DNA from: Rhizobiales bacterium NRL2
GTDB lineage: Bacteria; Pseudomonadota; Alphaproteobacteria; Minwuiales; Minwuiaceae
Direction: 5' to 3'
NCBI GenBank assembly: GCA_001664005.1
Contig: CP016093.1
Span: 3,649,031 to 3,713,030 of the forward strand
Length of the DNA: 64,000 nucleotides
Part shown: piece after piece, positions 8,342-62,827 of the stretch
Numbering within the stretch: position 1 is the first letter of the stretch
How the letters are laid out: the number at the start of each line of letters is the position of its first letter
Made by a program: the position numbers and the translations under genes
The notes under the pieces: generated by a model
Seen by the model: only the letters and a program-made list of their open reading frames with translations
Database searches by the model: none
What the model was told of the DNA's origin: nothing

Positions 8342-8430
8342 CTGATTCGGTCTTTTCGGATCGACGGCCCCCTGCCGTCATCCACGCCGCCATCAATAGC
8401 GCGGATGGGCCCGGCCGGCCATATATATGG

Positions 8431-9159
8431 TCACTGCCGGTCCGGTGAAAAGAGCACCACCAGATGATCCACGAGACCGTCGGTGACCAGCTCGGTGTTG
8501 CGCGGCGGCGGCCCGGAAGCGATCGAATCCTCTCCGGCCGGCGCCGGCGCGGATTCGATCTGCGAAGTGTCGGCCCCGGCGCGGCTTTCCGGGCGCTCCC
8601 CGGCCGGCGCACGAACCTCGGCATCCGAAGGCGCCTGGCGGTCGACGCCCATCTCCGTCAGCCGCGCGGCAGCGCGGCCGAAGCCGAGTTCAGCGGCGCG
8701 GCGGAACCAGCGGATCGCCGCCTCGCGGTCGCGCGCCGTGCCGTAGCCGCTTTCATGGAGAATGCCCAGATTGTGCATCGATTCCGCCAGGCCGCCCTCG
8801 GCCGCCTGTTTCATGTAGCGGAAGGCCCGTTCGGCATCCGCCTCAACGCCATTCCCCTTCAGATAGAGGTCGGCGAGGTTCGCCGCCGCCGGCGCGAAAT
8901 CCTGCTCGGCGGCGCGGCGGAACCAGTCCGCGGCGGTCCCCGGATCGCGCGCCACGCCGACGCCGTTCAGATACATCAGGCCCAGATTGCGCTGCGCCGC
9001 GGGATCACCGGCCCTGGCGGCTTCCTCCCAGATTTCCGCGGCGCGCGGATGATCGCCGGCGCGATAGGCCTCCAGCCCGTCGCGGAAACTGGCTTCGGCG
9101 ACCGCGAGCGGCGCACAGACGAAAAGAATGGCGAAAAGGGAGACTATACACTTGGTCAT
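8431..9159 (-). CDS. Secreted Sel1-repeat protein
   Basis: This 242-residue protein has a signal peptide (MTKCIVSLFAILFVCAPLA, cleavage near AEA). Residues about 28-165 hold three complete Sel1-like repeats, each of the pattern A..NLG.LY..G.GV..D...A..WFR.AAE, preceded by a half repeat. The C-terminal region is a Pro/Ala/Glu-rich linker ending in a hydrophobic segment (LVDHLVVLF). Sel1 repeats are protein-interaction solenoids; the partner is unknown. I chose ATG 9159 because it starts the signal peptide and has GGAGGG six bases upstream; the longer reading adds 13 residues with no support. Confidence 0.85.
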   Translation of the reverse strand: MTKCIVSLFAILFVCAPLAVAEASFRDGLEAYRAGDHPRAAEIWEEAARAGDPAAQRNLGLMYLNGVGVARDPGTAADWFRRAAEQDFAPAAANLADLYLKGNGVEADAERAFRYMKQAAEGGLAESMHNLGILHESGYGTARDREAAIRWFRRAAELGFGRAAARLTEMGVDRQAPSDAEVRAPAGERPESRAGADTSQIESAPAPAGEDSIASGPPPRNTELVTDGLVDHLVVLFSPDRQ

Positions 9160-9341
9160 GGCTTGACCCTCCGGTGTGCTTCTGACGGCAAGGCGCACGG
9201 CGGCCTCATTCTCCGTTGATCGGGCGGTTAACCTTCCATACCAGATAGGGTGTGACAGGCGCGGGCGAAAGCTGTGGCACTCGGCAGCATGGCAATCGGG
9301 ACGATACGCCCTAGCTTGCGCTTCACGGCAAGGAGACCTTC

Positions 9342-9926
9342 ATGAGCGCACCCACCGACCCCATCGCCCATTTCCGATCCTGGATGGAAGAGGCGCGGGA
9401 AAGCGAGCCGAACGACCCGAACGCCATGGCGCTCGCGACTGTGGGCGCCGGCGGCATGCCCAGCCTGCGGATGGTGCTGCTGAAAGACGTCGATCGGGAA
9501 GGCTTCGTCTTCTACACCAATTTCGAGAGTCAGAAGGGGCAGGAACTGCTGGCCCACCCGAAGGCGGCGCTCTGCTTCCACTGGAAGAGCCTGCGCCGCC
9601 AGGTCCGTGTCGAAGGCATGGTGGAGCGCGTCGACGAGTCCGAAGCCGACGCCTATTTCGCCTCCCGCCCCCGCGACAGCCGCATCGGCGCCTGGGCCTC
9701 GGACCAGAGCCGCCCGATGGAGGGCCGGTTCGAACTGGAGAAGCGCGTGGCGAAATTCGCGGCCAGGTACGCCATCGGCGAAGTGCCCCGGCCGCCGCAC
9801 TGGTCGGGCTTCCGGATCGTGCCTTCTCGGATCGAGTTCTGGCGCGACCGGCCCTTCCGCCTGCACGAGCGGCTGAATTTTGTCCGGGAGCGGGACGGCT
9901 GGCGGAACGAGGTGCTGTTTCCCTGA
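9342..9926 (+). CDS. pdxH: Pyridoxamine 5'-phosphate oxidase
   Basis: PdxH uses FMN and oxygen to convert pyridoxamine- or pyridoxine-5'-phosphate to pyridoxal phosphate. The 194 residues carry the family blocks: [20 protein letters not shown] (FMN binding), [19 protein letters not shown], and the C-terminal signature [15 protein letters not shown]. The length is slightly below the usual 200-220, from a short N-terminus. ATG 9342 follows an AAGGAGA site. Its TGA overlaps the ATG of the CDF transporter (ATGA), indicating co-transcription. Confidence 0.95.
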
Positions 9927-10903
9927 TGGCGCCGGCGCGCAAACCGGAGAGCTGGATGCGCCTCGCCACCCTGGCGTCGGTGCTGACGGCCTTTGTCCTG
10001 TTGGTGATCAAGACCGTGGCACTGGTCATGACCGGCTCCACGGCCATGCTCGGGTCCCTGCTGGATTCGGCGCTCGATCTGACCGCTTCGCTGACCAACC
10101 TGTTCGCGGTCCGCTACAGCCTGACGGAAGCGGACGAGGAACACCGTTTCGGCCACGGCAAGGCCGAATCCCTCGGCGCCCTGGCGCAGGCGGCGCTGAT
10201 TTCCGGCTCCGCCGTTTTCCTGGCCTGGGAGAGCGCTGCGAACCTTCTCGACCCCGATCCAGTACGCGCCACTACGCTCGGCATCATCGTCATGGTGGTA
10301 TCGATCGCGATGACGCTCGTGCTCGTGGCCTTTCAGCGCTTCGTCGTCCGCCGCTCCGGCTCTGTCGCGATCAGCGCCGACCTGCTGCATTATTCGGGCG
10401 ACCTGCTGATGAACGCCGGCGTCATCGTCGCGCTGGTGCTGTCGGGCATGATGGGCGTGCATGTCGCTGATCCGATCATCGGCGTACTGATCGCACTGTG
10501 GCTGCTGCGCGGGTCGTGGCAGATCAGCCGCAACGCCTTCGACCAGTTGATGGACCGGGAACTGCCCGAGGACGAGCGCGCGCGCATCCTGACCGCGGCG
10601 CTGGCAGTCCCCGACGTCAGCGCCGTGCACGACCTGCGCACGCGGCAGTCCGGCCTGGCAGCCTTCGTTCAGGTCCACGTCGAGCTGGACGGCGGCATGT
10701 CGCTCTACCGCGCGCATGTCATCGCCGACATGGTGGAGGCGGAGATCGAGCGCATCCATCCGGGCGCAGAGGTCATCGTCCACCTAGATCCGGCGGGCGC
10801 GGAAGATCTCGCGGATCAGTACGACCGCGTCACGGCGGCGGAGTGGGACGGCGGCGCGGAGGAGACCTCCGAAGAAGACAATTCCCAAGGGGAGCGGGCG
10901 TGA
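9926..10903 (+). CDS. Cation diffusion facilitator (FieF-like Zn2+/Fe2+ efflux)
   Basis: This 325-residue member of the CDF family exports divalent metal in exchange for protons. It has six membrane segments. The tetrahedral metal site is complete: Asp47 and Asp51 in GSLLDSALDL, and His155 and Asp159 in ADLLHYSGD, an offset of two from FieF D45/D49/H153/D157. A cytoplasmic C-terminal domain with VHDLRTRQSG and a conserved H-x-H near VHVELDG follows, then an acidic tail. The DD-HD arrangement suggests Zn, Fe or Cd rather than Mn. Its start overlaps the pdxH stop by 1 nt. Confidence 0.92.
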   Translation: MAPARKPESWMRLATLASVLTAFVLLVIKTVALVMTGSTAMLGSLLDSALDLTASLTNLFAVRYSLTEADEEHRFGHGKAESLGALAQAALISGSAVFLAWESAANLLDPDPVRATTLGIIVMVVSIAMTLVLVAFQRFVVRRSGSVAISADLLHYSGDLLMNAGVIVALVLSGMMGVHVADPIIGVLIALWLLRGSWQISRNAFDQLMDRELPEDERARILTAALAVPDVSAVHDLRTRQSGLAAFVQVHVELDGGMSLYRAHVIADMVEAEIERIHPGAEVIVHLDPAGAEDLADQYDRVTAAEWDGGAEETSEEDNSQGERA

Positions 10904-47986: not shown

Positions 47987-48058
47987 GGCTGCGCGAGATT
48001 GCGGCGGGACCGTGTTTCGGGTAATCCCATCACAACGTATAATCAAGGAGACGCGTGC

Positions 48059-48229
48059 ATGAGCAGCGATGTGCTTAAAGGCAACTTCGAACCTAGGAAA
48101 CGGGTCGTCTCGCCAGAGCGGGAAGAGACCTTGGAAGACCGCTTCGAGATGGAGGCGAAGAAGCGCCTTGGCGGTTCCATCGCCTATGTCTCGAAAAAGA
48201 AAGTCACCTGGGACGCGGACAAGAAGTAG
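48059..48229 (+). CDS. 56-residue charged small protein
   Basis: ATG 48059 follows AAGGAG at nine bases, and codon usage looks coding. The protein has no Cys, no membrane segment and one predicted central helix (SPEREETLEDRFEMEAKKRL), with a Lys-rich C-terminus (YVSKKKVTWDADKK). It matches no family known to me. It ends 9 bp before the DUF115 gene and 72 bp after the SDR gene, so it seems to belong to the DUF115/radical SAM transcription unit. A peptide substrate or scaffold is possible but unproved. Confidence 0.7.
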   Translation: MSSDVLKGNFEPRKRVVSPEREETLEDRFEMEAKKRLGGSIAYVSKKKVTWDADKK

Positions 48230-48238
48230 GGCCGCCGG

Positions 48239-49267
48239 ATGCCAGGGGAGCGTCAGGGACGCCTGCTCAAACAGCTTCAGAACGAGATGGCGTCGATGAC
48301 GTCAGCCCGGACTATGGACATGTGTCTCGCGAATGTGGAGGTCAACGAACCGCACTACCGCAATGGCCGGTCATTGAAGGAGCTTCGGGATCTCGGGCTC
48401 GGCGAGGGCGACAGCGCCGTGGTGATCGCCGCCGGTCCGTCACTGCGCCGGCGCGACCCGGTGCCGACCCTGGTCGAGACGGGCTATCGCGGCGCCACGG
48501 TGATAACCGAAAGCGCGCTGTCGCATTGTCTGCGGCAGGGGCTGGTGCCCACCTGCGCAGTGTCGGTCGATCCCCATCCGCTGCGTATCGTGCGATGGTT
48601 CGGGGACCCGGATCTGGATGATGGCCGGATGGCAGCGGACGACTATTTTCGGCGCCAGGAGCAGGACCCGAGCTTTGCTGACGAGAAGCGCAAGAACGAT
48701 GAACTGCTCGCCCTGATGGAGGAGTTCGGGCCCCGCATCCACATCGCGCTGGGCACGACTTCGTCACCCGACGTGGTGAAGCGGGTGCACGAGATCGGCA
48801 TGCAGGTCTTCTGGTTCAATCCGATGCTGGACGACCCGGACGAGCCAGGCAGCGTGACGGCGGAGTTGCAGCGTCGCAACGGTCTGCCCTGCATGAACGC
48901 CGGCGGAAATGTAGGCGGCGCTTGCTGGATGCTGGCCCATGCGGTGCTCGGCAAGGCCCGGGTGGCGGTCACCGGCATGGATTTCGGCTACTACGCCGAT
49001 ACGCCGCTCATCAACACACAGTACTACTACGAGGCGCTGAATCTCGCCGGAGAAGCGCATGTCGAGGACCTCTACGTCGACATCTACAACCCTCATCTCG
49101 ACGAATGGTACTTTACCGACCCGGCCTATTACTGGTACCGCTCCGCCTTCATCGAGATGACCGATGATGCCGACTGCGAAACTTGGAACTGCAGTGGCGG
49201 TGGAACGCTGTTCAGCGACCGGATCAATTGGGCGCCGCTGGAGAAATTTCTGGCGGAGGCCGGCTGA
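48239..49267 (+). CDS. DUF115/MptE-like protein (motility accessory factor type)
   Basis: This 342-residue protein carries the DUF115 (MptE-like) core: SAVVIAAGPSLRRRDPVPTL, an ITESALSHCLRQGLVPTCAV strand-helix unit, the acidic VSVDPHPLRI, and NAGGNVGGACWMLAHAVLGK with the following VTGMDFGYYADT. Homologous domains form the catalytic centre of Maf flagellin glycosyltransferases that add pseudaminic or legionaminic acid, but Maf proteins are usually longer, so this is a domain-only version. The C-terminal region is Tyr-rich. It precedes a radical SAM gene by 32 bp. Confidence 0.82.
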   Translation: MPGERQGRLLKQLQNEMASMTSARTMDMCLANVEVNEPHYRNGRSLKELRDLGLGEGDSAVVIAAGPSLRRRDPVPTLVETGYRGATVITESALSHCLRQGLVPTCAVSVDPHPLRIVRWFGDPDLDDGRMAADDYFRRQEQDPSFADEKRKNDELLALMEEFGPRIHIALGTTSSPDVVKRVHEIGMQVFWFNPMLDDPDEPGSVTAELQRRNGLPCMNAGGNVGGACWMLAHAVLGKARVAVTGMDFGYYADTPLINTQYYYEALNLAGEAHVEDLYVDIYNPHLDEWYFTDPAYYWYRSAFIEMTDDADCETWNCSGGGTLFSDRINWAPLEKFLAEAG

Positions 49268-49299
49268 CAGCGACGCCCCCATCCGAAAGGCGGTCGAAC

Positions 49300-50910
49300 A
49301 TGGCCAAGATACTTTTCATCAATCCCGTCGTCCGGGAGGAGGACGTGCCGCGCCACGTGCCCTACGGCATCGCGCTGCTGGCGGCGATCGTCATGGAGAA
49401 GGGCCACCAGGTCCAGGTCTATGACGAGAACGCCTGGCGGCTGGGCACCGAAACACTGGGTGATGTCTGCCGCGCCGACGATTGGGACATCATCGCCTAT
49501 GGTGGGATCACGACGACATACAACTCGATCAAACGCCTGACGAAGATCGCTCGGCGGGAAGCGCCGTCGGCCGTGCAGGTAATGGGCGGAGGCATCCTCA
49601 CCTCGATTCCGCGCGAGATCATGACGTGGCTGCCTGAAGTGGATGTCGGCTGCGTCGGCGAGGGCTTCGTGACCTTTCCCGAGATCTGCGACATGGTCGA
49701 CCGGGGCGGCCGCGAGTTCTGGAACATCCAGGGCACCATCTCGCGCGTGCCGGGCCAGGGCCTGAAGCTGTCCCAGATGCGCCAGCTCATCGACGACCTG
49801 GACAACCTCCCCTTCCCCGCTTGGGATCTGTTCCCGCTGGAGGAGGTCTATTTCAAGAACAGCCAGGCGCTGTTTTCCGAGGAAGGCATGCTGGCCTCGC
49901 GACGGCTGGACATCAACGCCAGCTATGGCTGCTCGCTGATCTGCCGTTTCTGCTATCACCTCGGCATCGCCGGCGACATGCGCTACGAGGTGAACGATGC
50001 CGGCGAGACCCAGGTCGCCTTCGACAAGCCGGGCACCTACACCCGCAGCATCCGCTACCACTCGCCCGACTACGTGGCCGAGCTGGTGAAGCACGCCTAC
50101 GACAAGTACAAGATCAATTTCGTCGGGTTCCTGGACGAGAACCTGATGACCATGGACAAGTACTCCGGCCGCACCTGGATGAAGGATATCTGCGACCGCT
50201 GGCATGACTATGGCTTCGCGCCGCGCAACCAGCGCGACGACGGCACCTGGGACGGCATTCACTGGTCCGGAACCAGCCACGCCACGCTCTGCACCAAGGA
50301 CGTCTTGCAGACCATGCGCGCCGCCGGCTGCTCGCACCTGGTCTATGGCTACGAATCCTTCGCGCCGCACGTGCTGAAGACCATCGGCAAGGGCGCCACG
50401 CGGGAGTCCAACATCCGCAGCTTCTTCTGGACCCTGGATGCCGGCATCCGGCCGATCCCCAACCAGATCATCGGCTTCCCGAACGAGGACTTCGATTCCA
50501 TCCGCATGTCGATGGACGCCTGGGACGAGCTGGGAATCGTGGTCAAGCCGCACTTCGCAACGCCCTATCCGGGCTCGGAGTGGTTCACCACCTACCGCAA
50601 GCGGATCGAGGGCCAGTACGATGGCAATCTGGAGCAATTCATCATCGATCTGGGCGATGCTTCGTCGATATCGGCGGTGATCAGCCACAACTTCAATGCC
50701 ATCGAGCTGCTGGGTCTGCGCGAGGCGATGCTGGCCCGCGACAAGCGGCGTATCGACGAATACGAGAAGATCTGGCGGCGCAATCACGACATCGCGGAGG
50801 GCGAGCCCTCGACCCTGCTGGGTGAGCGCATGACCGCCGCCTTCCTGCGCGACGAAGAGAAGGTGAAGTCTGCGATCGAGAATTCCTCGGCGCAGGACGC
50901 CGTGGTCTGA
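49300..50910 (+). CDS. B12-binding-type radical SAM protein
   Basis: This 536-residue protein combines an N-terminal cobalamin-binding-like Rossmann domain (ILFINPVVREEDVPRHVPYG, then VMGGGILTS and GCVGEGFVTFPEI) with a radical SAM domain whose cluster motif CSLICRFC is Cys211, Cys215 and Cys218. The substrate-binding barrel continues through FVGFLDENLMTMDKY and QIIGFPNEDFDSIRMSM. The B12 domain lacks the DxHxxG motif, so cobalamin use is unsure. Such enzymes methylate unactivated carbons or rearrange sugars and lipids. It lies between the DUF115 gene and the CMP-sugar synthetase gene. Confidence 0.88.
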   Translation: MAKILFINPVVREEDVPRHVPYGIALLAAIVMEKGHQVQVYDENAWRLGTETLGDVCRADDWDIIAYGGITTTYNSIKRLTKIARREAPSAVQVMGGGILTSIPREIMTWLPEVDVGCVGEGFVTFPEICDMVDRGGREFWNIQGTISRVPGQGLKLSQMRQLIDDLDNLPFPAWDLFPLEEVYFKNSQALFSEEGMLASRRLDINASYGCSLICRFCYHLGIAGDMRYEVNDAGETQVAFDKPGTYTRSIRYHSPDYVAELVKHAYDKYKINFVGFLDENLMTMDKYSGRTWMKDICDRWHDYGFAPRNQRDDGTWDGIHWSGTSHATLCTKDVLQTMRAAGCSHLVYGYESFAPHVLKTIGKGATRESNIRSFFWTLDAGIRPIPNQIIGFPNEDFDSIRMSMDAWDELGIVVKPHFATPYPGSEWFTTYRKRIEGQYDGNLEQFIIDLGDASSISAVISHNFNAIELLGLREAMLARDKRRIDEYEKIWRRNHDIAEGEPSTLLGERMTAAFLRDEEKVKSAIENSSAQDAVV

Positions 50911-50920
50911 GCGCGGGCGC

Positions 50921-51631
50921 ATGATCGGCGAACACCGCGTTCTGGCGGTCCTCTGCGGTCGGGGCGGGTCCAAGGGCCTGCCCCGGAAGAATGTACTCGA
51001 CCTCGGTGGCAAGCCGGTAATCGCCTGGTCTGTCGAGGCGGCGCACGCTTCCCGGCTGCTCGACCGCTGTGTTGTTTCCACCGACGACGAGGAGATCGCC
51101 GATGCGGCGCGGAACGCCGGCGGCGACGTGCCGTTTCTCCGCCCCGCCGAGTTGGCGACGGATACGGCGCCGGTGACCGAGGCGATGATTCACGCCGTCG
51201 AAAACCTGCCCGAAAGATACGACATCGTGGTGCTGCTGCACGCGACCTCTCCCTTCCGGACCGGCGGCGACATCGACGATTGCATTTCCATGCTGGTTGA
51301 GACCGGCGCGGAAACATGCGTCACCTTTTCGGAGATGATAAAGCCCCCTAGCTACATAGTGCAGATTGACGAGCGCAGCCGCATGCGACCGCTGGAGGTC
51401 TCCGGACTGCTCCGTCGGCGCCAGGAGACGGTGAAGCATTATCTGCCCAACGCTGCCGTCTACGCAGTCTGGACCGACTTCCTGCTTCGAGAGCGCAAGG
51501 TCTATTCCAAGGATACGGCGGCACTTGTCACGCCGCACGAGCGCGCCATCGACATCGACGGACCACTCGATCTCGAGATCGCCCGCGGCCTGCTCACTCG
51601 CCCCGGCTTCCCGCCAGCAAATGATGCGTAA
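50921..51631 (+). CDS. NeuA-like CMP-nonulosonate cytidylyltransferase
   Basis: This 236-residue protein resembles CMP-sialate/legionaminate/pseudaminate synthetases. It has the CTP-binding CGRGGSKGLPRKNVLDLGGK loop, RCVVSTDDEEIADAARNAG, VVLLHATSPFRTGGDIDD and HYLPNAAVYAVW, plus a C-terminal AIDIDGPLDLEIA. It would activate a nine-carbon sugar for transfer. Its last 11 nt overlap the start of the CysC-like gene. The exact sugar cannot be told; NeuB and NeuC homologues lie 10 kb downstream. Confidence 0.88.
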   Translation: MIGEHRVLAVLCGRGGSKGLPRKNVLDLGGKPVIAWSVEAAHASRLLDRCVVSTDDEEIADAARNAGGDVPFLRPAELATDTAPVTEAMIHAVENLPERYDIVVLLHATSPFRTGGDIDDCISMLVETGAETCVTFSEMIKPPSYIVQIDERSRMRPLEVSGLLRRRQETVKHYLPNAAVYAVWTDFLLRERKVYSKDTAALVTPHERAIDIDGPLDLEIARGLLTRPGFPPANDA

Positions 51632-52190
51632 TGCACAGAACAACATAAGAGGCGGCGTGACACGGCAGGGGCGCACGATCTGGATCACCGGGCTTTCGGG
51701 CGCAGGCAAGTCAACGCTGGCCCGCGCGCTGGTCGACCGGTTACGCCGCGCGGGACAACCGGTGCTGCTGCTCGACGGCGATGAACTGCGCGCAGTGCTC
51801 GGTCCGGACGCGACGGCGGCGCCGAGCCACACGCGTGATTCACGACTGGCGCTGGCGTTGCGCTATGCGCGCCTCTGTCAGCTGATCACAAGCCAGGGAA
51901 ACGACGTGGTGATCGCGACGATCTCCCTCTTCGGAGAGGTGCACGCCTGGAACCGGGCGAACCTGAGCGACTATTTCGAAGTCTTTCTCGACGTGCCTCT
52001 GGACGAATTGCGGCGGCGCGATCCGAAGGGCATCTATAGCCGTTTCGACAGCGGCGAGATCAGCAGCGTCTCCGGACTAGACGTGGCGGTCGACTACCCG
52101 GACGCGCCCGACATGCACCTGCCCTGGGATCCAGAACGGTCCGTCGAAGCGACGCTTGAAGCGGTTCTGGAACGGCTGGGCCGGCGCTGA
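51621..52190 (+). CDS. CysC/adenylylsulfate kinase-like protein
   Basis: This 189-residue P-loop kinase has GLSGAGKS at residues 24-31, LLDGDELRAVL, FLDVPLDELRRRDPKGIYSR and GEISSVSGLDVAVDYPDAP. APS kinases share the RDPKG-Y and G-E-I features, but the usual ISPY/R block is replaced by ISLFGEVHAWNR and the FTGID region is altered, so the substrate may not be adenylylsulfate. Kinases of this type in capsule clusters can act on other nucleotide-linked compounds. It starts inside the cytidylyltransferase gene, so the pair is coupled. Confidence 0.8.
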   Translation: MMRNAQNNIRGGVTRQGRTIWITGLSGAGKSTLARALVDRLRRAGQPVLLLDGDELRAVLGPDATAAPSHTRDSRLALALRYARLCQLITSQGNDVVIATISLFGEVHAWNRANLSDYFEVFLDVPLDELRRRDPKGIYSRFDSGEISSVSGLDVAVDYPDAPDMHLPWDPERSVEATLEAVLERLGRR

Positions 52191-52327: not shown

Positions 52328-53575
52328 TCACTGGGCCATGCTTGTCGCCGAAGTAACTTCGGCCAACAAGACTGCGATACGCTGGACCGCATCGGGCGGA
52401 CAGTCGAAGGCGTCGTCCGCATCCACCGCCCTGCGCTTCCGAACAAGGCAGGCCGCGACAGCGGCCTCAAGGTCCGCGTCGTGACGGACGACATGTGCAA
52501 CGGGACTGCGGTCATAAGGCAGTATGCTCTTCTCCCCCGTCGAGTCCCAGACCACCAGCGACACGCCGTTGAAAATGGCGAGCAGCCCTACCGTCGAGCG
52601 GAAAACGATCACCGCATCGGAAGCCTTGACGACGGAGACAATATCCTCGTCGCGCAGCAGAAGCACCCTTTCGGCGACCGCCGGGAATTCGCGACGGAAT
52701 TCGTCCAGACCAATGGAAGGATGCAGCTTGACCGCGAAGCGCCAGCGATCTGCGGTTTTCGCTGCCAGTTCCCCGATGACCCGCACCTGTGACGCCAGAT
52801 GTCCACGATGGCCCGGCGTCATGTACGTCACCAATGGTCTCGAATCCGTCGGTAGCTCGAGCGGGACGGCGTCTTGGAACTCCCGACGCCAGTGCGCGAA
52901 GACCGGCTGACCAGTGACACGGACAGAATGTGACGGCAGACCCGCCTTGAGCATCCGCGCGCGAACAAAGTCGTTCAGCACGCCTATTTGGGAGGGACGG
53001 TCGTCGGAGGCGATTTGCACACAGTTCTCCTCCAGCGGCCGCTCCCCCAGCATGCCGTAGCCGTAGTGATCCTCGATCAGAATACCAGGAACGCCCCGGG
53101 CCCGGGCCACACGCATCGCCGCCAATTCCATGCGGACCAAACAGGTGACGACGACAGCGGCCGGCCGCTCCTGCTCGAACACACGGTCGAGAAAGCGCGT
53201 CGGCTGGAAAACGCGGCGGCCCTCGCGGCCATAGGCCTCGCGCGCCGCAGTCTCGCCCCGTTCCGCGATCAGGTCAGTCATTGACACGCCCAAATAGGCA
53301 CAAGACTCTTCGAACGATACGCCCGAGGACGGCTCCCAAAAAGGCTCCGCGAGTTCGCGGCCAATCTGAAGCGCATCCTCGTAGCCCGCCATCGGCAGAT
53401 AGTCCGACACCTGCCGGTAAGGCACCTTATGCGGGCGGAGAATCTGAGGCGCGTTGGTTAAAGCCAGCACCAGGGGATCGAATCGCGGGTCGGCCCGCAA
53501 TAACGGATAGACATGACGGACGATGTCGGCGTGGCCACCGCCATAGGTCACGAACAGGATGCGCCGGGCACTCAT
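52328..53575 (-). CDS. GT-B-fold glycosyltransferase-like protein
   Basis: This 415-residue protein looks like a GT-B glycosyltransferase or a relative of capsule/2-epimerase proteins. It starts with RRILFVTYGGGHADIVRHVY, a Gly-rich loop after the first strand. The second half has RPLVTYMTPGHRGHLASQV, FAVKLHPSIGLDEF and SDAVIVFRSTVGLLAIFNG, the usual nucleotide-sugar binding half. Sugar and acceptor are unknown. It is the last gene of the minus-strand operon with the amidotransferase, HisH- and HisF-like genes, overlapping the latter by 4 nt. Confidence 0.72.
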   Translation of the reverse strand: MSARRILFVTYGGGHADIVRHVYPLLRADPRFDPLVLALTNAPQILRPHKVPYRQVSDYLPMAGYEDALQIGRELAEPFWEPSSGVSFEESCAYLGVSMTDLIAERGETAAREAYGREGRRVFQPTRFLDRVFEQERPAAVVVTCLVRMELAAMRVARARGVPGILIEDHYGYGMLGERPLEENCVQIASDDRPSQIGVLNDFVRARMLKAGLPSHSVRVTGQPVFAHWRREFQDAVPLELPTDSRPLVTYMTPGHRGHLASQVRVIGELAAKTADRWRFAVKLHPSIGLDEFRREFPAVAERVLLLRDEDIVSVVKASDAVIVFRSTVGLLAIFNGVSLVVWDSTGEKSILPYDRSPVAHVVRHDADLEAAVAACLVRKRRAVDADDAFDCPPDAVQRIAVLLAEVTSATSMAQ

Positions 53576-54354
53576 TCCTCGGCCGGCCAGCGCGCCAGTT
53601 CAATGCCAGCGTCCAACAGTTTCTGTCGAGCACTGGGGAGCCCTGAGCCGACGAAATTGAACAGGTTCGCTGTCGCTACGGCGTCGATCTCCAGCGCCGC
53701 CAGCGCGGTTTGCAGGTGCAGGTGGTTGCCGGCGCCGCCGGCCATGATGACCGGGATTTCCAGTCTATCGGGCAGAAACGCGAGCGCGTCCATGTCATAT
53801 CCCTGCCCGGTGCCGTCCTGGTTGATCGAGTTAAGATAGATCTCGCCAACTCCCAAGTCGACAACTTGGCGCAGATGCGCGGCAAGATCGTTCTCCAGCT
53901 GCCGCGCTCCGTTCTCAACATGGACGGCGTACTCGCCATTCTTCTCCCGCCGGTAGTCGACTGAGGCGATGACACACTGCGCCCCGAAGGTCCGCACCAG
54001 CAGCCGCACAAAGTCCGGGTCGTCGGCGAGCGCCGTATTCACCACCAGCTTGTCGGCGCCGGCGGCCGTCATCATCCGCGCCTGTTCTTTGGTGCGCAGC
54101 CCGCCGCCCAGCGCCACCGGCATGAAGCAGCCTCTGGCCACTGCCCGTGCCTGTTCACAGAAGCGCTCGGTGTCCGCGCTCTCCCGACTGGCGTCGAGGA
54201 TGACAAGCTCGTCGATCGAGGTGGAGATATTGGAGAAGCCGTAGTTGCGGTTGAGCCAGTTCACGTCGCCGACTTTCTGCAGCCTGAAGTTTCGGCTCAG
54301 CATAAAGTGCCCGCGGTCGTGGATCAGCGTAAAGATCAGGCGCTTCTTCAGCAT
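53572..54354 (-). CDS. HisF-like synthase subunit of sugar amidotransferase system
   Basis: This 260-residue (beta/alpha)8-barrel protein is HisF-like. The first catalytic Asp is in LIFTLIHDRGHFM and the second in VIASVDYRREKNGEY. It lacks the histidine-operon context and instead follows a WbpG-type amidotransferase and a HisH-like gene, as in the Pseudomonas wbpG-hisH2-hisF2 set, where the pair supplies ammonia for an acetamidino group on a sugar. The first barrel strand differs from true HisF (IPCLDV). It overlaps its neighbours by 1 and 4 nt. Confidence 0.88.
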   Translation of the reverse strand: MLKKRLIFTLIHDRGHFMLSRNFRLQKVGDVNWLNRNYGFSNISTSIDELVILDASRESADTERFCEQARAVARGCFMPVALGGGLRTKEQARMMTAAGADKLVVNTALADDPDFVRLLVRTFGAQCVIASVDYRREKNGEYAVHVENGARQLENDLAAHLRQVVDLGVGEIYLNSINQDGTGQGYDMDALAFLPDRLEIPVIMAGGAGNHLHLQTALAALEIDAVATANLFNFVGSGLPSARQKLLDAGIELARWPAEE

Positions 54355-54977
54355 CAGAAAAACTCAATGAAGTTGCGCAGGACTTTGAGCCCGTTGGTCT
54401 GACTCTTTTCGACGTGGAACTGCGTACCACATACGTGGCCGCGCTCCACCGCAACAGTGAAGCTCTCGCCGTGGCTGCAAACGCCGGCCACCGCGTCCGG
54501 ATCGACCCCGGTCATTCGGTAGCTGTGGGTAAAGTAGAAGTCGGCCGCCTCGCCCAGTCCCCGCATCAGCCGGCTTTCCCGCGGGAACCGCACGGTGTTG
54601 AAGCCAACATGGGGAATCTTGAGCCGTTTCTCCCAGTCCTCGTCAAAACGAAAGCGCCGCACCTCACCGCCGACATAGCCTAATCCGCGGCTCTCGCGGC
54701 CTTCTTCACCGGCGTCGCTGAGAACCTGCATGCCGACACAGATACCCAGCAGCGGAACGCCCTCGTCATCGACCTTCTCGCGGATCGCCGCCTCGAATCC
54801 GCGTCCGCGGATATTCGCCATGGCGTGGCCGTAGGCACCAACGCCGGGCAGGACAAGCTTGGTTGCCCATCTGAGTTCTTCCGGCGCAGTCGCTACCTTC
54901 ACCGGAGCACCCAAGTGTTCGAAGGCGCTCACGACCGAGCCGAGATTGCCTGCCCCATAGTCGATGATGGTGATCAT
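54354..54977 (-). CDS. HisH-like glutaminase subunit of sugar amidotransferase system
   Basis: This 207-residue class I glutamine amidotransferase has the triad Cys80 (LLGICVGMQ), His and Glu (TQFHVEKSQ), and the N-terminal DYGAGNLGSVVSAF. It releases ammonia from glutamine, which the HisF-like partner would pass on. The operon partner is a WbpG/PseA-type gene rather than histidine genes, so a role in acetamidino-sugar formation is more likely than in histidine synthesis. It starts 10 bp after the amidotransferase stop. Confidence 0.9.
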   Translation of the reverse strand: MITIIDYGAGNLGSVVSAFEHLGAPVKVATAPEELRWATKLVLPGVGAYGHAMANIRGRGFEAAIREKVDDEGVPLLGICVGMQVLSDAGEEGRESRGLGYVGGEVRRFRFDEDWEKRLKIPHVGFNTVRFPRESRLMRGLGEAADFYFTHSYRMTGVDPDAVAGVCSHGESFTVAVERGHVCGTQFHVEKSQTNGLKVLRNFIEFF

Positions 54978-54987
54978 CGCAACCGCC

Positions 54988-56103
54988 TCATTCGACCTCG
55001 AATTTCGGCGCCCAGCGGTTGTTGGACTTGCGGAACAGGTCGCGGTTGACCCAGCGGTCGAGCACCGCGTCGAATTCCTCCTGGGTCATCCGGTAGTAGT
55101 CCAGATAAGTTTCGATGAATTCTTCAGGATACTGTCCGTCATACATCCGGACCAGATGCACCGCCTGCTCGCGCGTCATCGCGCCGCGCCGTATCTCAAT
55201 GCCAGCGTCCTGCAGCGCGCGGCCGAAGCCGAATTTCAGATACATCAGATAGGTGTGGAGCGCGTAGAGTGCCTGATCGTTCTGGGCGAAGTTCGTGAAG
55301 GTGCCAGAGTTCGCCATGTCCACCTCCTTCAGTCCGCAATATTCCTTGGCGACCAGATAGTTGCGGTAGGAATCCCAAGGCTCGAAATAACTGAGGTGGG
55401 TCAGCGTGAGCTGATGGTCGCCAAACTCCTTGTCGGTCGGGAACTTCCAGAAATAGAGGTCGCCGTCCGGTACCTCGAGCAGTGAGCTGACCTTGTCATA
55501 GCCACGCTCCAGATAGACGCGCTTGATGTATTCCACATCGAAGAACGGCCGATTCATTGTCTCGGTGGAGCCGCCGTATTCGATATCGCCATCCTCGGCA
55601 TACATGACCAGGGGGATATTGAAGTTGAGCGCCGTGCGAATCACTGACGAAAGGATGGCAATCAGCCAGCCGTAATAGGGGAAGCCCTTCTCGATGAAAC
55701 CGTACTTGTTGTAGAGCTGCATCGTCCGCGCGTTCGGCGTGACGTGGACATGGTCGTAGCCGCTCTCGATGAACGCCTTCAGGTTCTCGTTGCCGATCTC
55801 CATCTCCAGCGGCGGACGGACGGTCACCGTCAGCGGGTTCATTCCGTATTCGTGCTTCATCTTGTAGGCGACGTACGAGCCGTCCTTCCCGCCGCTGACC
55901 GGCACGAGAACGTCGAATCCCCCTGTCGTGGAACGGTGCTTCTCCAGCAGATCGCGCAGCTGCTGCTGTCTCGGGCCCCAGTCCATGGTCTTCTTGGCTT
56001 CCATCCACTGGCAGGCGTTGCACCACCCCCGTTCGTCCCACTCGATCCGGGGACGGGTCGACATGTTGAGGCAGTTCTTGCACCAGAAGACGTCAGCGGT
56101 CAT
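54988..56103 (-). CDS. N-acetyl sugar amidotransferase (WbpG/PseA-type)
   Basis: This 371-residue enzyme replaces the oxygen of an N-acetyl group with an amidine nitrogen, forming acetamidino sugars. The N-terminal zinc ribbon has Cys8, Cys11, Cys28 and Cys31, and the PP-loop ATP site is SGGKDGSY at residues 70-77. LVMYAEDGDIEYGGSTET follows mid-protein. Relatives include PseA (pseudaminic acid) and WbpG (O-antigen). It heads an operon with HisH-, HisF- and glycosyltransferase-like genes. The sugar acted on is unproved. Confidence 0.92.
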   Translation of the reverse strand: MTADVFWCKNCLNMSTRPRIEWDERGWCNACQWMEAKKTMDWGPRQQQLRDLLEKHRSTTGGFDVLVPVSGGKDGSYVAYKMKHEYGMNPLTVTVRPPLEMEIGNENLKAFIESGYDHVHVTPNARTMQLYNKYGFIEKGFPYYGWLIAILSSVIRTALNFNIPLVMYAEDGDIEYGGSTETMNRPFFDVEYIKRVYLERGYDKVSSLLEVPDGDLYFWKFPTDKEFGDHQLTLTHLSYFEPWDSYRNYLVAKEYCGLKEVDMANSGTFTNFAQNDQALYALHTYLMYLKFGFGRALQDAGIEIRRGAMTREQAVHLVRMYDGQYPEEFIETYLDYYRMTQEEFDAVLDRWVNRDLFRKSNNRWAPKFEVE

Positions 56104-56397
56104 GGAAGCGGGAGTCCGTTGCAGTTCTCTATGAGGGAAACCGGGGCCGTCAGTAACCCCAACGGCCGTTCACGTCCAGAAACCAGTTGAGGATTTGATG
56201 AAGGAAGCGTGGTTGTGTCGCCTGATCGCCGCATCGCCGCATCGCCGCATCGCCGCATCGCCGCATCCTGCGACCTTACAACATGGTCGTCAAAAGACTA
56301 CTCGGGTGCTAGACGATCAGGCACGCTTCCAGGAGGGAGCTGCCGGCCCACGGCCTCGCAGAGGCAAAACGTACTTGCTTGTCCGAAGCGCAAATCC
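56104..56397. other. Divergent intergenic region containing an octamer repeat
   Basis: The 294 bp between the divergent amidotransferase and sulfotransferase-like genes include promoters for both sides and the repeat at 56228. No other conserved element was seen. The sequence is visibly less GC-rich toward the right, like the downstream gene. Confidence 0.5.
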
Positions 56398-56401
56398 ATG
56401 A
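56198..56401 (+). CDS. Possible 67-residue upstream ORF through the octamer repeats
   Basis: ATG 56198 has TGAGGA four bases upstream and reads through all five octamers, giving a repeated Ile-Ala-Ala-Ser-Pro-His-Arg-Arg-like sequence. It ends at TGA 56399-56401, overlapping the ATG of the next gene as ATGA. With one octamer fewer, the same start would be in frame with that gene. It may exist to couple or switch downstream translation. Protein function, if any, is unlikely. Confidence 0.3.
   Translation: MKEAWLCRLIAASPHRRIAASPHPATLQHGRQKTTRVLDDQARFQEGAAGPRPRRGKTYLLVRSANP
56228..56267. repeat. Five tandem copies of GCCGCATC
   Basis: Five perfect 8-bp units (GCCGCATC) in a row, 40 bp. The unit is not a multiple of three, so gain or loss of copies by slipped-strand replication would shift the reading frame of the ORF from ATG 56198 relative to the gene at 56398. 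Confidence 0.95.
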
Positions 56402-57396
56402 ACGACATTCTGCCCATACTTTCCAAGCCGCCATTGCACGATGATGTCGTCCTGATCGACGGGTTGGCCCGTTCCGGCAAAAAGCTGACTTGCCGGCTGA
56501 CCTGCTGGCTGGAGGACATGGATTTTTTCCAGTATATCTTCTGGGTTGAGCGTTTCAGCTATCTGCACTTGCTTGGCGCCATCCGAACCGACGTCGCTGT
56601 CAGCAACATCCAGGCCGCGATCGACGAAGCAATCTATTCGCGCTCCATTGGCCGGATGATGAATACACGGCTGTCGGATGCTTCCTCCGTTCTCAGTTCA
56701 CCAGAACCTGAACTCTATCAGCAACGCGCCCGTGAACCGGACGGTTCTGTGGCGATGGAAAAGGTAAGAACCGCCAGACGGATGATGCCATTTCAGACAC
56801 ACTATCTGATGGCAAATCCTGGACCTTCCATGCAGGCGGTCAGGACACTGAAGATGCTGCATGTGTCCCGGCACCCAATTGCCATTGCCGAAGACTGGTT
56901 ACGCCGTGGTTGGGGCGACCGCTATGGTGTCGATCCGATCGCATTTGAAGTACTGGTCGAGAAGAATGGCCAGACCGTCCCTTGGTTCGCAGCCTTTAGT
57001 GACGACGACTACGCTGCGATGAAGCCATCTGAACGCTGTATCGCAAATGTAATCGACCTGCAGGCGATGAACGACAGTGGGTTTGAAACGCTCAACGGCG
57101 CAGAGAAGGCCCGTGTGTATCGCTTCTGTTTTGAAGACCTGCTTTCCTCCACCGACGATATGGTCACCGATATCGCCAGTTTTCTTGGAAGAAAGCCCAG
57201 GTACGACCTAGGACTTGTGCTGGAGGAACAGAAACTGCCAAACCGAGGTGCAGCAGGGCCATACGATCACGAACTCGCGAAACTAATGCTAACCGCGTCA
57301 GAGCCATTTGTTGCACGGCTGGCAAAGGCCTCGCGGGCGTACGAGGCCCGTTGGGGGCTGGAGCCGACTATGTTTCCGGAGTACCGAAACAGATGA
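56398..57396 (+). CDS. Sulfotransferase-like protein
   Basis: This 332-residue protein has a sulfotransferase-like PAPS loop as GLARSGKK (residues 22-29) and the second signature SRHPIAIAED around residues 157-166. The usual 5'-phosphosulfate loop ends in Thr-Thr, here Lys-Lys-Leu, so activity is uncertain. Codon usage is less GC-rich than in neighbours, suggesting acquisition. No ribosome site precedes ATG 56398; translation may depend on the overlapping upstream ORF with the octamer repeats. It overlaps the methyltransferase start by 4 nt. Confidence 0.68.
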   Translation: MNDILPILSKPPLHDDVVLIDGLARSGKKLTCRLTCWLEDMDFFQYIFWVERFSYLHLLGAIRTDVAVSNIQAAIDEAIYSRSIGRMMNTRLSDASSVLSSPEPELYQQRAREPDGSVAMEKVRTARRMMPFQTHYLMANPGPSMQAVRTLKMLHVSRHPIAIAEDWLRRGWGDRYGVDPIAFEVLVEKNGQTVPWFAAFSDDDYAAMKPSERCIANVIDLQAMNDSGFETLNGAEKARVYRFCFEDLLSSTDDMVTDIASFLGRKPRYDLGLVLEEQKLPNRGAAGPYDHELAKLMLTASEPFVARLAKASRAYEARWGLEPTMFPEYRNR

Positions 57397-59136: not shown

Positions 59137-60651
59137 GTGCTGAAGTCGGTCCTGAAATCCGGATTCGCCGTCGCCGCGGCCGTCCTCCTCGGCCGGGTGC
59201 TAGGCTTTGGGCGCGACGCCACCGTGGCCGCGACCTTCGGCATCGACCGATCGGCCGACATCGCGGTCTTCCTCATCGGATTGCCGGACTTTCTGATCAA
59301 CGTTCTCGGCGCGGGCGGGTTCACCGCCATTCTGGTCGTCCACTACCGCCAGAAGCCGGCGGAGGCGGCGCGGCTGATGTTCCAGGCCGGCCTAGCCGTA
59401 TTGCTGGGGGTCGGCGCGCTGGCGCTGGTCCTGATCGCCCTGCGCGGCGGTCTGGTCGACGCCCTGGCGCCCGGCTTCGACGCCGCGGCCCGCGAGCGCA
59501 CCGTCGACCTGCTGCCGCTGGTCCTGCTGTCGGCGCCGATCGCGGCCATGACCGGCGCATCGATCGGCTTCCTGCAGGCGAAGGGCCGCTTTTTTGTCGC
59601 CGCCTGCGGCGCGGCCATCATCAACACGGTGCTGATCGCGGCCATGCTCGGCGCGCAGCCCGGCCGGACGCTGAGTGTGCTGGCCGCGGCCATCCTCGCT
59701 GGCGCGCTGCTGCGCTGGCTGGTGCAGGCCGCCGTGATCGGGCGCGAAGGGATCGGCGGGATCGCCTTCCGGCCCTGGCTGGTCGACCGCTCCCTGATGA
59801 AGGCCTTCGTCCGGGCCGCGGCAACCGAGGCGGTCGTCTTCTTCTATCCCTTCGCGCTCCGCGCCATCGCCACGCTGTTCGGCGTCGGCGCCCTCGCATC
59901 GGTCAACTACGCGACCAAGCTGGTGCAGTTGCCGCTGGGCGTCGTCGTCATGACCCTGACGACGATCCTCCTGCCCCAGCTTGCGGGCCTCGCCCCGCGG
60001 GAAAGGAATGCCGCCGACCTGGGCCCGTTCCGCCGTCTGGCCGTTCATGGCCAGTTCTGGATCCTAGTGCTGAGCGCGATGGCGGTCGCCGTCCTCGTGG
60101 TGCACGGCAGCTGGCTGGTCCGGCTGGCCTTCGGCTGGGGCGAGATCGGCCCGGACGGCCTCGCCGCCATCGCCAGTTTCACCGCGGTCTTCAGCCTCAG
60201 CCTGCTGCCGATGGGGTTGAACGTCTTCCTGCGCCGCGCTCTCAATGCGCTGGGTGAGACAAAGTCTCCAATGTCGGCGGAAATCGCCGGCTTCGCAACC
60301 TTCATAGCGAGTGCATTCGCGGTCATCGCCGCGGATGGTCCGCTGGAGGCCGTACTGCTCTGCGCCGCTGGGGGTTGCTTCGTCTCCATGGTCATGCTGC
60401 TCGCTGCCATGTCGCAGCGCGGCGTGCCGCTCGTGCAGGAGTTCCGCCGTCCCGGCCTCTGGGCGGCCGTGGTTCTGTCGGCGCTGGCGACGGCCGCGCC
60501 GGGCCTGATTCTGGAGCGGCTGGCCCCCGGCCACGCCTGGCTGCCCGCTATCGCCATCGCCCTCGGCGGATTGGCCGGCCTATGCGCGGCGCTGGCGGTG
60601 AACCGCGAGGCGCGGGCGGCGGTCAGGACCCTTTTGCCGCGCCGTCAGTAG
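59137..60651 (+). CDS. MurJ/MviN-family lipid flippase
   Basis: This 504-residue polytopic protein of the MOP superfamily has about fourteen membrane segments and starts with GTG 59137. The MurJ-like N-terminal LGRVLGFGRDATVAATFG is present, as are further conserved basic residues in the central cavity region (FFYPFALRAIATLFGVGALA). It could be the housekeeping lipid II flippase, or a glycan-linked homologue moving the lipid-linked unit built here. It lies 40 bp after the sulfotransferase gene and converges on neuC with a 7-bp overlap. Confidence 0.85.
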   Translation: MLKSVLKSGFAVAAAVLLGRVLGFGRDATVAATFGIDRSADIAVFLIGLPDFLINVLGAGGFTAILVVHYRQKPAEAARLMFQAGLAVLLGVGALALVLIALRGGLVDALAPGFDAAARERTVDLLPLVLLSAPIAAMTGASIGFLQAKGRFFVAACGAAIINTVLIAAMLGAQPGRTLSVLAAAILAGALLRWLVQAAVIGREGIGGIAFRPWLVDRSLMKAFVRAAATEAVVFFYPFALRAIATLFGVGALASVNYATKLVQLPLGVVVMTLTTILLPQLAGLAPRERNAADLGPFRRLAVHGQFWILVLSAMAVAVLVVHGSWLVRLAFGWGEIGPDGLAAIASFTAVFSLSLLPMGLNVFLRRALNALGETKSPMSAEIAGFATFIASAFAVIAADGPLEAVLLCAAGGCFVSMVMLLAAMSQRGVPLVQEFRRPGLWAAVVLSALATAAPGLILERLAPGHAWLPAIAIALGGLAGLCAALAVNREARAAVRTLLPRRQ

Positions 60652-61799
60652 CTGTTGAGCTTGCGGAAGACCGCGGGCGTCAGGTCCACGGTCTCCAGGA
60701 AGCCGGCGATGCGCGGCGCGGTCCGTCCGTCACCCCAGAGATTGGTGTACTCGCCGCGCCCTGCCGCCAGCGCCTGCCGGATTCCCGCCGCCAGAGACGC
60801 CGGCCTGTAGTCCGGAACGTCGATCACGTTGGCGTTGCGCAGGCGTGCATTCTGGCGGTCGCCGACATTGACGCAGGGAATGCCCAGGCTGGCCGATTCG
60901 ATAACGCCGCTGGAGGAATTGCCGATCAGCAGATCGGCCGCCGCCAGCCAGTCGAGATATGCGGGGCGCGACAGGTGCGTCTCCCGGCGCAGCGCCACCG
61001 GCGATACTTCCGCGAAGCGGTCCGCCGCCCGGCGCACGGCGACGCCGCCGGCGTCCGAATTCGGGGCCAGCAGCAGCATCTGCAGACCCTCGGCCGCCAC
61101 AGCCGCGAGCACCGCCGTCATCTGCTGGCCGCCGGCGGCGGCGTCCTGGACGACGGGATGAAACAGCACCACGGCCACCGGCCGCGCCGGATCCAGCCCG
61201 GCCTCGGCGCAGAGCGCCGCGCGGTCGCGGCCGCCGCGTGCGCCGATGTCGTCCAGCCCCGGCGCGCCCACCACCCGGATGCGCCAGTCTTCCTCGCCCA
61301 TGCGCCGCAGCCGTTCGGCGGCATCCTCGGTCGCGGCGAGATGGAGGTGACAAAGCTTGGAAATCGCGTGACGCACGGGCTCGTCGACGGTGCCCGACCG
61401 CTCGCCGCCATGTATGTGGACGCCGGCGGCGCCCGCGTGCAGGGCAGCGATGGCGCCGGCCAGCATCTCGCCGCGGTCGCCCAGCAGCAGCACCATGTCC
61501 GGGCGCTCGGCAGCGAAGGAGCGGGACAGCGCGACCACCATCCGCCCGATGGCCGCACTCATCGTCCCGGCGTCGTCCATTTCCCCGTCGTCGGCGTGCT
61601 CCGCCGGCACCAGGTCGCGGATGGTGAATCCGCTCGCCTCGATCTCGCTCACGGTGCGGCCATGACCGGGCGAGAGATGCATGCCCGTCACCACCAGCGA
61701 GAGATCCAGGCCGGCACGGCCATCGATCTCGGCCAGCGTCCGCCGCATCAGTCCGAAATCCGCCCGCGTGCCGGTGACGTAGACCACGCGCCGGGTCAT
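60645..61799 (-). CDS. neuC: NeuC-type UDP/GDP-HexNAc 2-epimerase (hydrolysing)
   Basis: This 384-residue enzyme of the NeuC/LegG/NnaA group removes the nucleotide and inverts C2 to yield a ManNAc-type sugar. Visible are YVTGTRADFGLMRRTL at the N-terminus, LLLGDRGEMLAGAIAAL, the VHIHGGERSGTVDEPVRHAI active-site block with SKLCHLHLAAT, and LIGNSSSGVIES. It overlaps neuB by 4 nt. Substrate could be UDP-GlcNAc (sialate pathway) or the 2,4-diacetamido-trideoxy sugar (legionaminate pathway). Confidence 0.93.
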   Translation of the reverse strand: MTRRVVYVTGTRADFGLMRRTLAEIDGRAGLDLSLVVTGMHLSPGHGRTVSEIEASGFTIRDLVPAEHADDGEMDDAGTMSAAIGRMVVALSRSFAAERPDMVLLLGDRGEMLAGAIAALHAGAAGVHIHGGERSGTVDEPVRHAISKLCHLHLAATEDAAERLRRMGEEDWRIRVVGAPGLDDIGARGGRDRAALCAEAGLDPARPVAVVLFHPVVQDAAAGGQQMTAVLAAVAAEGLQMLLLAPNSDAGGVAVRRAADRFAEVSPVALRRETHLSRPAYLDWLAAADLLIGNSSSGVIESASLGIPCVNVGDRQNARLRNANVIDVPDYRPASLAAGIRQALAAGRGEYTNLWGDGRTAPRIAGFLETVDLTPAVFRKLNSY

Positions 61800-62827
61800 G
61801 GCTGAAGATCGTTCCATTCGATCGGCGCCCCCGCGCGGCCGGCCGCCTTCAGCCGCCGGCCCGCCAATTCGTCCAGGTGCCGGGGATGCAGTCCCGTCTC
61901 CGGCCGCAGCACGGCGATGTCACCGGGCGTCAGCACGTGACCGGCTGGCAGGTCGCGCTTCAGCTTCAGGCCCCGACGGGCGACGGCGCGGGTCTCGAGT
62001 TCGTCGGGCTGCGGTATCTTCTCGCCGCTGCCCAGCGCCTGCGCCACTTCGCGGATGCCGGCGGCCATCGCCGCAAAGTCGTCCGGCTCCAGGGAGGCGG
62101 CGTGATCCGGCCCGGCCATGGTCCGGTCCAGGGTGAGGTGCTTTTCGATCGCCACCGCACCGAGCGCCACCGCCGCCAGCGCCGCCGCGGCGCCCAGCGT
62201 GTGATCGGAATAGCCCACCGCCCCGCCATAACGCTCCCGCAAGGTCGTGATCGCCCGCAGGTTGGCCTGCTCGACCGGGGTCGGATAGGCGGAGACGCAA
62301 TGAAGGATGGTCAGCCGGTCCCGGACGGGCGCCAGAGCCGCGACGGCCTCGTCGATCTCGGCGAGATCGGCCATGCCCGTCGACAGGATCACGGGCCGTC
62401 CATAGGCCGCCACCTGGCGCAGCAGCGGCAGATTGGTGACATCGCCGGAACCGATCTTGAAGCGGTCCACGCCCAGCTCGGCAAGAGTCTCGGCCGATCC
62501 GGCATCGAATGGCGTCGACAGGAATTCGATCCCCAGTTCGCCGCAGCAATCGTAGAGCGCGGCGAGCGCCGCCGCGGGCAGGGCGAGACGGCGCAGCATC
62601 TCGCGCTGATCGTCGATCCCTGTCGCCCGCTTCTGGTAGGCCGCGGTGGCGGCGTCGGCGGCGACCAGCGCATCCGGATCGAAGGTCTGGAACTTGACCG
62701 CGTCGGCGCCGGCGCGGGCGGCCGCGCGCACCAGTTCCAGGGCCAGTTCCGGGTCGCCATTGTGATTGACGCCGGCCTCGGCGATCACGAGGACGTCCGG
62801 CGGCGATGCGGTGTCGGCAGCGTTCAT
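61796..62827 (-). CDS. neuB: NeuB-type nonulosonate synthase
   Basis: NeuB joins a ManNAc-type sugar to phosphoenolpyruvate, giving sialic, legionaminic or pseudaminic acid. The 343 residues contain IAEAGVNHNGDPELALELVR, AVKFQTFDPDALVA, KIGSGDVTNLPLLRQVAAYG, LSTGMADLAEIDEAV and YSDHTLG. The C-terminal antifreeze-like SAF domain starts near residue 275 (LKLKRDLPAGHVLTPGDIAV). ATG 62827 was chosen because the NeuB core begins about twelve residues later. It is transcribed ahead of neuC. Confidence 0.95.
   Translation of the reverse strand: MNAADTASPPDVLVIAEAGVNHNGDPELALELVRAAARAGADAVKFQTFDPDALVAADAATAAYQKRATGIDDQREMLRRLALPAAALAALYDCCGELGIEFLSTPFDAGSAETLAELGVDRFKIGSGDVTNLPLLRQVAAYGRPVILSTGMADLAEIDEAVAALAPVRDRLTILHCVSAYPTPVEQANLRAITTLRERYGGAVGYSDHTLGAAAALAAVALGAVAIEKHLTLDRTMAGPDHAASLEPDDFAAMAAGIREVAQALGSGEKIPQPDELETRAVARRGLKLKRDLPAGHVLTPGDIAVLRPETGLHPRHLDELAGRRLKAAGRAGAPIEWNDLQP

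Follow-up and report, generated by a model that had tools for sequence, protein, structure and literature searches.

The mycofactocin peptide is MftA, and MftC is its radical SAM enzyme. According to the available part of one report, mycofactocin is a glycosylated radical SAM peptide with MftF as the glycosyltransferase, and the locus described here is like it in outline, with a short conserved protein, a radical SAM enzyme and a (putative) glycosyltransferase in one cluster (PMC7491314). A further point of comparison is provided by the ela genes for 8-epilegionaminic acid in Acinetobacter, which lie as add-ons beside the legionaminic acid pathway, a position that our genes share (PMC9676051). 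However, ElaA is a putative oxidoreductase, and a radical SAM enzyme, a DUF115 protein or a small protein is not mentioned in the available part of that source (PMC9676051). The Maf transferases, as the accessible portion of the relevant literature describes them, are well known (PMC11339370).

In this study we analysed a 64,000-nt stretch of the genome of Rhizobiales bacterium NRL2 (hereafter the window), in which three genes on the forward strand encode a 56-aa small protein (S), a short DUF115 protein (D) and a radical SAM enzyme (R). The trio differs from mycofactocin in that S is without the C-terminus of MftA, the candidate transferase D has a predicted Maf fold, and the genomic context is CMP-nonulosonate (CMP-NulO) synthesis; moreover, the mycofactocin NCBIfam models matched neither S nor R. 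In the open-access literature searched (subscription papers and preprints lay outside this search) we came across neither the trio nor the S family, nor a link of S with NulO clusters, and no radical SAM peptide system tied to nonulosonic acids is known to us.

Organization of the gene trio

The gene of S (48059..48229, + strand) runs from an ATG start to a TAG stop and carries the ribosome-binding site AAGGAG (48045..48050, +) 8 nt before the ATG. An earlier note, made from the sequence of this DNA, had described a 56-aa ORF with a strong ribosome site and a Lys-rich tail, followed within 9 and 32 bp by genes for a DUF115/Maf-type protein and a B12-type radical SAM enzyme, and this description proved accurate. 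The C-terminal tail of S reads KKKVTWDADKK, and the gaps measured on the window sequence are 9 nt between S and D and 32 nt between D and R. D (48239..49267, +) matched PF01973 (MptE-like/DUF115) in Pfam with 40.0 bits against a gathering cut-off of 34.6, and R (49300..50910, +) exceeded the Pfam cut-offs of both the B12-binding domain PF02310 (51.9 versus 32.1 bits) and the radical SAM domain PF04055 (46.3 versus 29.5 bits). The iron-sulfur motif CxxxCxxC of R is located at 49930..49953 (+), and its cysteines C211, C215 and C218 are kept at at least 97% in the R alignment. Judging from the spacing and the kept gene order, S, D and R are probably expressed in one transcript.

The trio is followed by a gene for a PseF-like CMP-nonulosonate synthetase (50921..51631, +), which is likely to supply the donor. 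On the opposite strand the window contains WbuZ/HisF-like, HisH-like and WbuX-like (acetamidino) genes (53572..56103, −) as well as NeuC (60645..61817, −; TIGR03568 above the cut-off) and NeuB (61820..62791, −; the stretch matched by PF03102, the gene ends being approximate), the latter two lying 10 kb from the trio.

Conservation and family of the small protein

S is a real protein under purifying selection and not a chance ORF. It showed 75% identity in two congeners and 58-68% identity in four genomes of other families, in all of which D and R were always found downstream of S, and the dN/dS values of seven equal-length pairs ranged from 0.04 to 0.22. The loss of the small ORF among relatives, which the earlier note had named as an outcome that would contradict it, did not occur. 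The alignments revealed an N-terminal [L/M]KGN[F/Y] motif (LKGNF in the window, residues 6-10; 48074..48088, +), then a predicted helix and an invariant G-G-S. G38, G39 and S40 were invariant in the 45 aligned members, and the motif around S40 in the family is L-G-G-S-[I/M] (L-G-G-S at residues 37-40 in the window; 48167..48178, +), S40 being the acceptor residue that we propose. The conservation spans the whole length of S, the C-terminal half included.

S of the window had no match among the Pfam and NCBIfam models. When the 45 members were scanned one by one against Pfam and NCBIfam, only chance-level matches were obtained, and a seven-row S profile retrieved nothing from the PDB at E up to 10. 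Thus, the impression that the small protein resembles no known family was borne out, and S founds a family that is absent from Pfam and NCBIfam as judged by these searches. We also considered whether S could be a classic double-glycine (C39) leader. In such leaders a hydrophobic residue is expected at position -4 of the GG site, and this candidate was rejected, the residue at -4 of S being mostly R, K, H, N, S or A. In three Rokubacteria loci (L094, L101 and L105) S seemed at first to be fused to an ABC exporter. This was likewise rejected: S has its own start there, and the long frames between stops arise when the ABC gene is read out of frame.

In the AlphaFold2 read-through models of S+D and S+D+R, the pLDDT of S was about 29-50, with one helix before the GG. 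The placement of S on D or R was of low confidence in both models, which were built with 12 and ~11 S rows and short linkers. S is predicted to be unfolded apart from this one helix.

Co-occurrence of S, D and R

Searching the 385 genomes of the class with S at E up to 1 gave matches in 43 genomes, 36 of which had a best E above 0.03, and a strong match (E about 1e-12 or better) was present in seven, the window's own genome included. D and R adjoined S in all seven. Moreover, when the 385 genomes were searched with R at E up to 1e-80 and with D at E up to 1e-10, each search recovered these seven genomes and no others; the remaining 378 contained none of S, D and R at the thresholds used. A small ORF without the DUF115 and radical SAM genes, the other contradicting outcome that the earlier note had foreseen, was thus not found in this set. 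When 398 genomes of the phylum were searched with a 45-row S profile at E 0.001, S was detected in the window's own genome only, none of the 397 others passing this limit. The seven-row S profile yielded four other, weak rows on the same phylum set (5e-4 to 3e-3).

The contigs of GTDB were scanned with the R alignment and the best 80 of 128 relatives were taken (loci L044-L123), five of which appear to be the class genomes G197, G274, G351, G231 and G053 again, so that the two sets overlap. The earlier note had suggested looking for the small protein beside DUF115 and radical SAM genes in other genomes, and such an arrangement is widespread: among these best 80 of 128 relatives, S was present in 77 and D in 78 loci. 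In two R loci lacking S (L100 and L103) the contig ends just upstream of R. Another locus, L096, was tried as an S-less counter-example and rejected, since its contig carries S ~15 kb further downstream. The next gene after S is D in 75 of 77 loci, and D is itself followed immediately by R in 72 of 78; in the exceptions L109 and L115, S is found beside R rather than D. The cluster of L109, from Dehalococcoidia, combines two S genes with a single D and a single R; S adjoins R there, and D is ~4 kb off.

The taxon labels of the 80 loci comprise Alpha-, Beta- and Gammaproteobacteria, Nitrospina, Myxococcales, Nitrospira, Rokubacteria, Acidobacteria, Chloroflexi, Elusimicrobia, Omnitrophota and Pelagibacteraceae; many loci come from MAGs, for which single taxon assignments may err, and several from cultured strains. 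Cultured carriers of the trio include Paramagnetospirillum caucaseum SO-1, Methylobacter tundripaludum SV96, Colwellia chukchiensis and strain IMCC3096. At the limits used, R was unmatched on plasmids and phages. The viral contigs contained one R match with 22% identity (L153).

Structural relatives of D and R

In the AlphaFold2 model of D from the window most blocks exceeded a pLDDT of 90. Its best structural match was the Maf protein of Magnetospirillum (PDB 5mu5; Z 20.8, rmsd 3.0, 243 residues aligned), in agreement with the Maf-type label that D had been given from its sequence. D is 342 aa long and 5mu5 632 aa, and the alignment covers only residues 238-513 of 5mu5. Because the N- and C-terminal Maf domains are missing, we classed D as having a Maf-type catalytic fold and not as a Maf, and the model suggests that it is a stand-alone, minimal Maf-type catalytic domain. 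D resembles the Maf flagellin nonulosonyltransferases represented by 5mu5 in its PF01973 domain, its predicted catalytic fold and its CMP-NulO gene neighbours; unlike them, it is paired with S and R and not with flagellin. The next structural matches were an archaeal HPPK (8sd5, Z 14.9), SteA, which regulates cell division (Z about 10), and, with Z 8.6, human ST8SiaIII; 8sd5 was also the match of D in the PDB by sequence. Since HPPK 8sd5 has the same fold, the fold alone is no proof of glycosyl transfer by D.

The model of R, built from the homologue in L084, was most similar to AprD4 (Z 25.4) and also matched OxsB, MgmA and TsrM (range Z 22-25). AprD4 was the only match of R in the PDB by sequence (E 7e-6), and R fell far below all NCBIfam equivalog cut-offs (27.6 versus 500 bits for the AprD4 model NF033070). 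R is thus predicted to adopt a B12-type radical SAM fold that is nearest to AprD4. It has the CxxxCxxC motif, the B12-binding-type N-terminal domain and the predicted fold in common with AprD4, OxsB, MgmA and TsrM; unlike these enzymes, it is always paired with S and D. AprD4 itself is without cobalamin. SAR11 bacteria, in which the trio also occurs, are, to our knowledge, not known for B12 enzymes, and R may act with or without cobalamin.

The trio as an add-on to nonulosonate gene clusters

Clustering of 1,159 neighbour ORFs from the 80 loci resolved them into nonulosonate genes. A cytidylyltransferase was found in 59 of the 80 loci, NeuB-like proteins in 49, NeuC in 46, a CBS-nucleotidyltransferase in 41, an epimerase/dehydratase in 39, and the acetamidino-type HisF-like and HisH-like genes in 30 and 25, respectively. 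The labels CMP-synthetase, NeuB and NeuC were assigned from Pfam or NCBIfam matches, either of a protein in the cluster or of its homologue in the window, and two further clusters are presumably PtmE and DegT. Flanks of the full 10 kb were available for 38 loci. ORF clustering placed a CMP-NulO synthetase, NeuB or NeuC in 37 of these, and tblastn did so in the 38th (L091); L091 had been considered as a NulO-free locus and was dropped as such, a CMP-NulO synthetase being situated just upstream of S. In the whole set, clustering detected CMP-synthetase, NeuB, NeuC or PtmE in 71 of the 80 loci, the rest being mostly short contigs; on the 36-kb contig of G053 (the same locus as L090), no NulO gene was seen in the 35 kb read. 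The gene just upstream of S on the same strand encodes a CMP-NulO synthetase in 23 of 77 loci. The trio thus lies in clusters for nonulosonates, i.e., sugars of the legionaminic/pseudaminic type.

Flagellin, FliD or FliS genes occur near the trio in some loci, and most loci have no flagellar gene nearby. A separate large Maf is encoded in 11 of the 80 loci, which argues against regarding D simply as the transferase for flagellin in those loci. A constant peptidase or a dedicated exporter gene was not found across the clusters.

To what extent the genes have evolved together was assessed from the correlations of tree distances. These were 0.81 for S-R, 0.83 for D-R and 0.67 for S-D, and those of S, D and R with the cytidylyltransferase, NeuB, NeuC and PtmE amounted to 0.15-0.45; NeuB, NeuC and PtmE correlated among themselves at 0.70-0.75. 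The partial correlation of S and R given D was 0.61 (bootstrap 0.45-0.72), and that of S and D given R was 0.00 (bootstrap -0.12 to 0.15). These values speak for S and R as the most tightly coupled pair, but they must be read with care, since the tree of R is also the slowest and best measured (mean tree distances of 2.29 for S, 1.71 for D and 1.15 for R). In the sister species G082, the NulO cluster occupies the same place as in G197, and R, D and S are jointly missing from the site between the cytidylyltransferase and the sugar transferase. Since the cluster of G082 exists without the trio, the NulO cluster can do without it, and the three genes are acquired or lost together. Thus, S, D and R behave as one movable functional unit added to NulO clusters. 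The add-on relation to nonulosonate clusters goes beyond the earlier note, as does the finding that D corresponds to a minimal Maf domain and differs from the large Maf that occurs with it in flagellar clusters.

Possible function of the trio

The earlier note had weighed the peptide-modifying layout of a small protein with a radical SAM partner against the sugar transfer hinted at by DUF115. What stood is that the radical SAM enzyme and the Maf-type fold both share the small protein; modification of S itself is what we propose from these sequences. We consider the chances about even that S is a peptide which R modifies and D glycosylates with the CMP-sugar of the cluster, perhaps on the Ser after GG. 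R would bind S through the conserved N-terminal motif and/or the helix and install a radical modification, and D, acting before or after R, would transfer NulO to S, drawing on the CMP-NulO that the products of the adjacent genes synthesize. The simplest acceptor would be the invariant Ser of L-G-G-S-[I/M], which has a hydrophobic setting like the Maf sites in flagellin, and the outcome would be a peptide that bears a radical SAM modification as well as a NulO. The likeness of the GGS of S to the Shewanella flagellin site LLAGGFS*AGK, given in the available part of its report, is only suggestive (PMC3765264). The strict linkage and co-occurrence of the trio, the correlated tree distances, the second S copy beside a single R and D in the Dehalococcoidia cluster, the Maf fold of D and the fold that R shares with peptide- and sugar-acting enzymes point to S as the substrate. 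One trait of RiPP systems is present, namely a short peptide gene fixed beside modifying enzymes (S next to D in 75 of 77 loci, and next to R in L109 and L115), and the predicted unfolded state of S fits a peptide substrate better than a subunit with a fold of its own. However, most RiPPs have a variable core, whereas S is conserved in its C-terminal half, and the lack of a constant peptidase or exporter also speaks against a substrate.

Conservation along the whole length, as for an interface, would suit the main rival explanation, according to which S is an accessory subunit of R, and perhaps of D (an activator, an electron-transfer or a recognition partner), and the two enzymes act on CMP-NulO, a NulO glycan or another protein. 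In addition, S tracks R most closely, which may reflect only the slowest and best-measured tree of R, and AprD4, the nearest relative of R, is a sugar-acting enzyme that operates together with a partner protein. Nevertheless, S is predicted to be unfolded, one cluster has two S genes per one R and one D, and the invariant G-G-S with its Ser suggests a reacting or processed site, so that we regard a subunit role as possible but rather unlikely. The sugar-acting AprD4, the CMP-NulO synthetase located just upstream of S on the same strand in 23 of 77 loci and the separate large Maf in 11 of 80 loci could also be accommodated if S were a reusable sugar carrier, which D loads with NulO and the AprD4-like R tailors before the sugar is passed to a glycan or, via the large Maf, to flagellin. 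This appears improbable, given that no unloading enzyme is evident and O-glycosidic loading is hard to reverse.

A role of the trio in flagellin modification only, with D as a second flagellin transferase, would be in line with the Maf fold of D and with the flagellin, FliD or FliS genes found near some trios. We consider it very improbable: in most loci no flagellar gene is seen close to the trio, a large Maf distinct from D is encoded where such genes do occur, and the trio is carried by Pelagibacteraceae loci, SAR11 bacteria being without flagella as far as we know. Almost no weight can be given to a placement of the trio in cofactor metabolism, with D acting as a pterin pyrophosphokinase-like (HPPK/MptE) enzyme. 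The Pfam name, the PDB sequence match to 8sd5 and the shared fold (Z 14.9) would be explained, but the structural match to Maf is better (Z 20.8) and the NulO context is present in 38 of 38 full-flank loci.

Returning to S as a modified peptide, we tentatively suggest, with somewhat less than even confidence, that the horizontally mobile trio makes a glycopeptide, in which the small protein carries a B12-type radical SAM modification and a sialic-acid-like sugar added by a stand-alone Maf domain, in many phyla including the non-flagellated SAR11. If true, this would be the first radical SAM peptide system tied to nonulosonic acids known to us and would put Maf chemistry to a new use outside flagellin; many phyla would make a peptide bearing both a radical SAM modification and a sialic-acid-like sugar, and RiPPs would be joined with nonulosonate glycobiology, the two being unlinked in the literature found. 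Even if S is an accessory subunit, the trio would mark an uncharacterised step on many clusters of the legionaminic/pseudaminic type, and this step could alter the sugar structures predicted for them. The trio is clean enough for a deletion test, and the sister species is naturally without it.

Variation among the loci of the trio

The Dehalococcoidia cluster behind locus L109 contained two paralogues of the small-protein gene, both on the reverse strand of its sequence L143 (17038-17241 and 5476-5721), together with a single radical SAM gene and a single DUF115 gene. It was the sole two-paralogue case observed among the 80 radical SAM loci (the best 80 of 128 relatives). The DUF115 and radical SAM genes were separated by inserts at L105 (genes for a methyltransferase and for a polysaccharide deacetylase, 7922-10008) and at L076 (a methyltransferase gene, 8918-9775), and by clustering the inserts of L101 and L093 were related to these. 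In several Rokubacteria loci an MsbA-like ABC exporter gene was located directly 5' of the small-protein gene, and in others this position was occupied by a winged-helix regulator gene; examples of such upstream exporter/regulator genes lie at about 7000-8832 in L094 and at 4431-5060 in L105.

Other features of the window

An adenylyl-sulfate-kinase-like gene (51615-52190, forward strand; PF01583) matched NCBIfam PRK05541.1 with 190.6 bits against a cut-off of 127. Taken jointly with an open region at about 56400-57395 on the same strand, which by eye reads as a putative sulfotransferase, this gene hints that a surface glycan may be sulfated. The CMP-nonulosonic acid synthetase gene adjoins the kinase-like gene.

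In addition, the octamer ATCGCCGC is repeated in 5.4 perfect copies at 56225-56267, within the intergenic spacer that separates the WbuX-like gene from the next ORF, and this repeat could be a slippage site.
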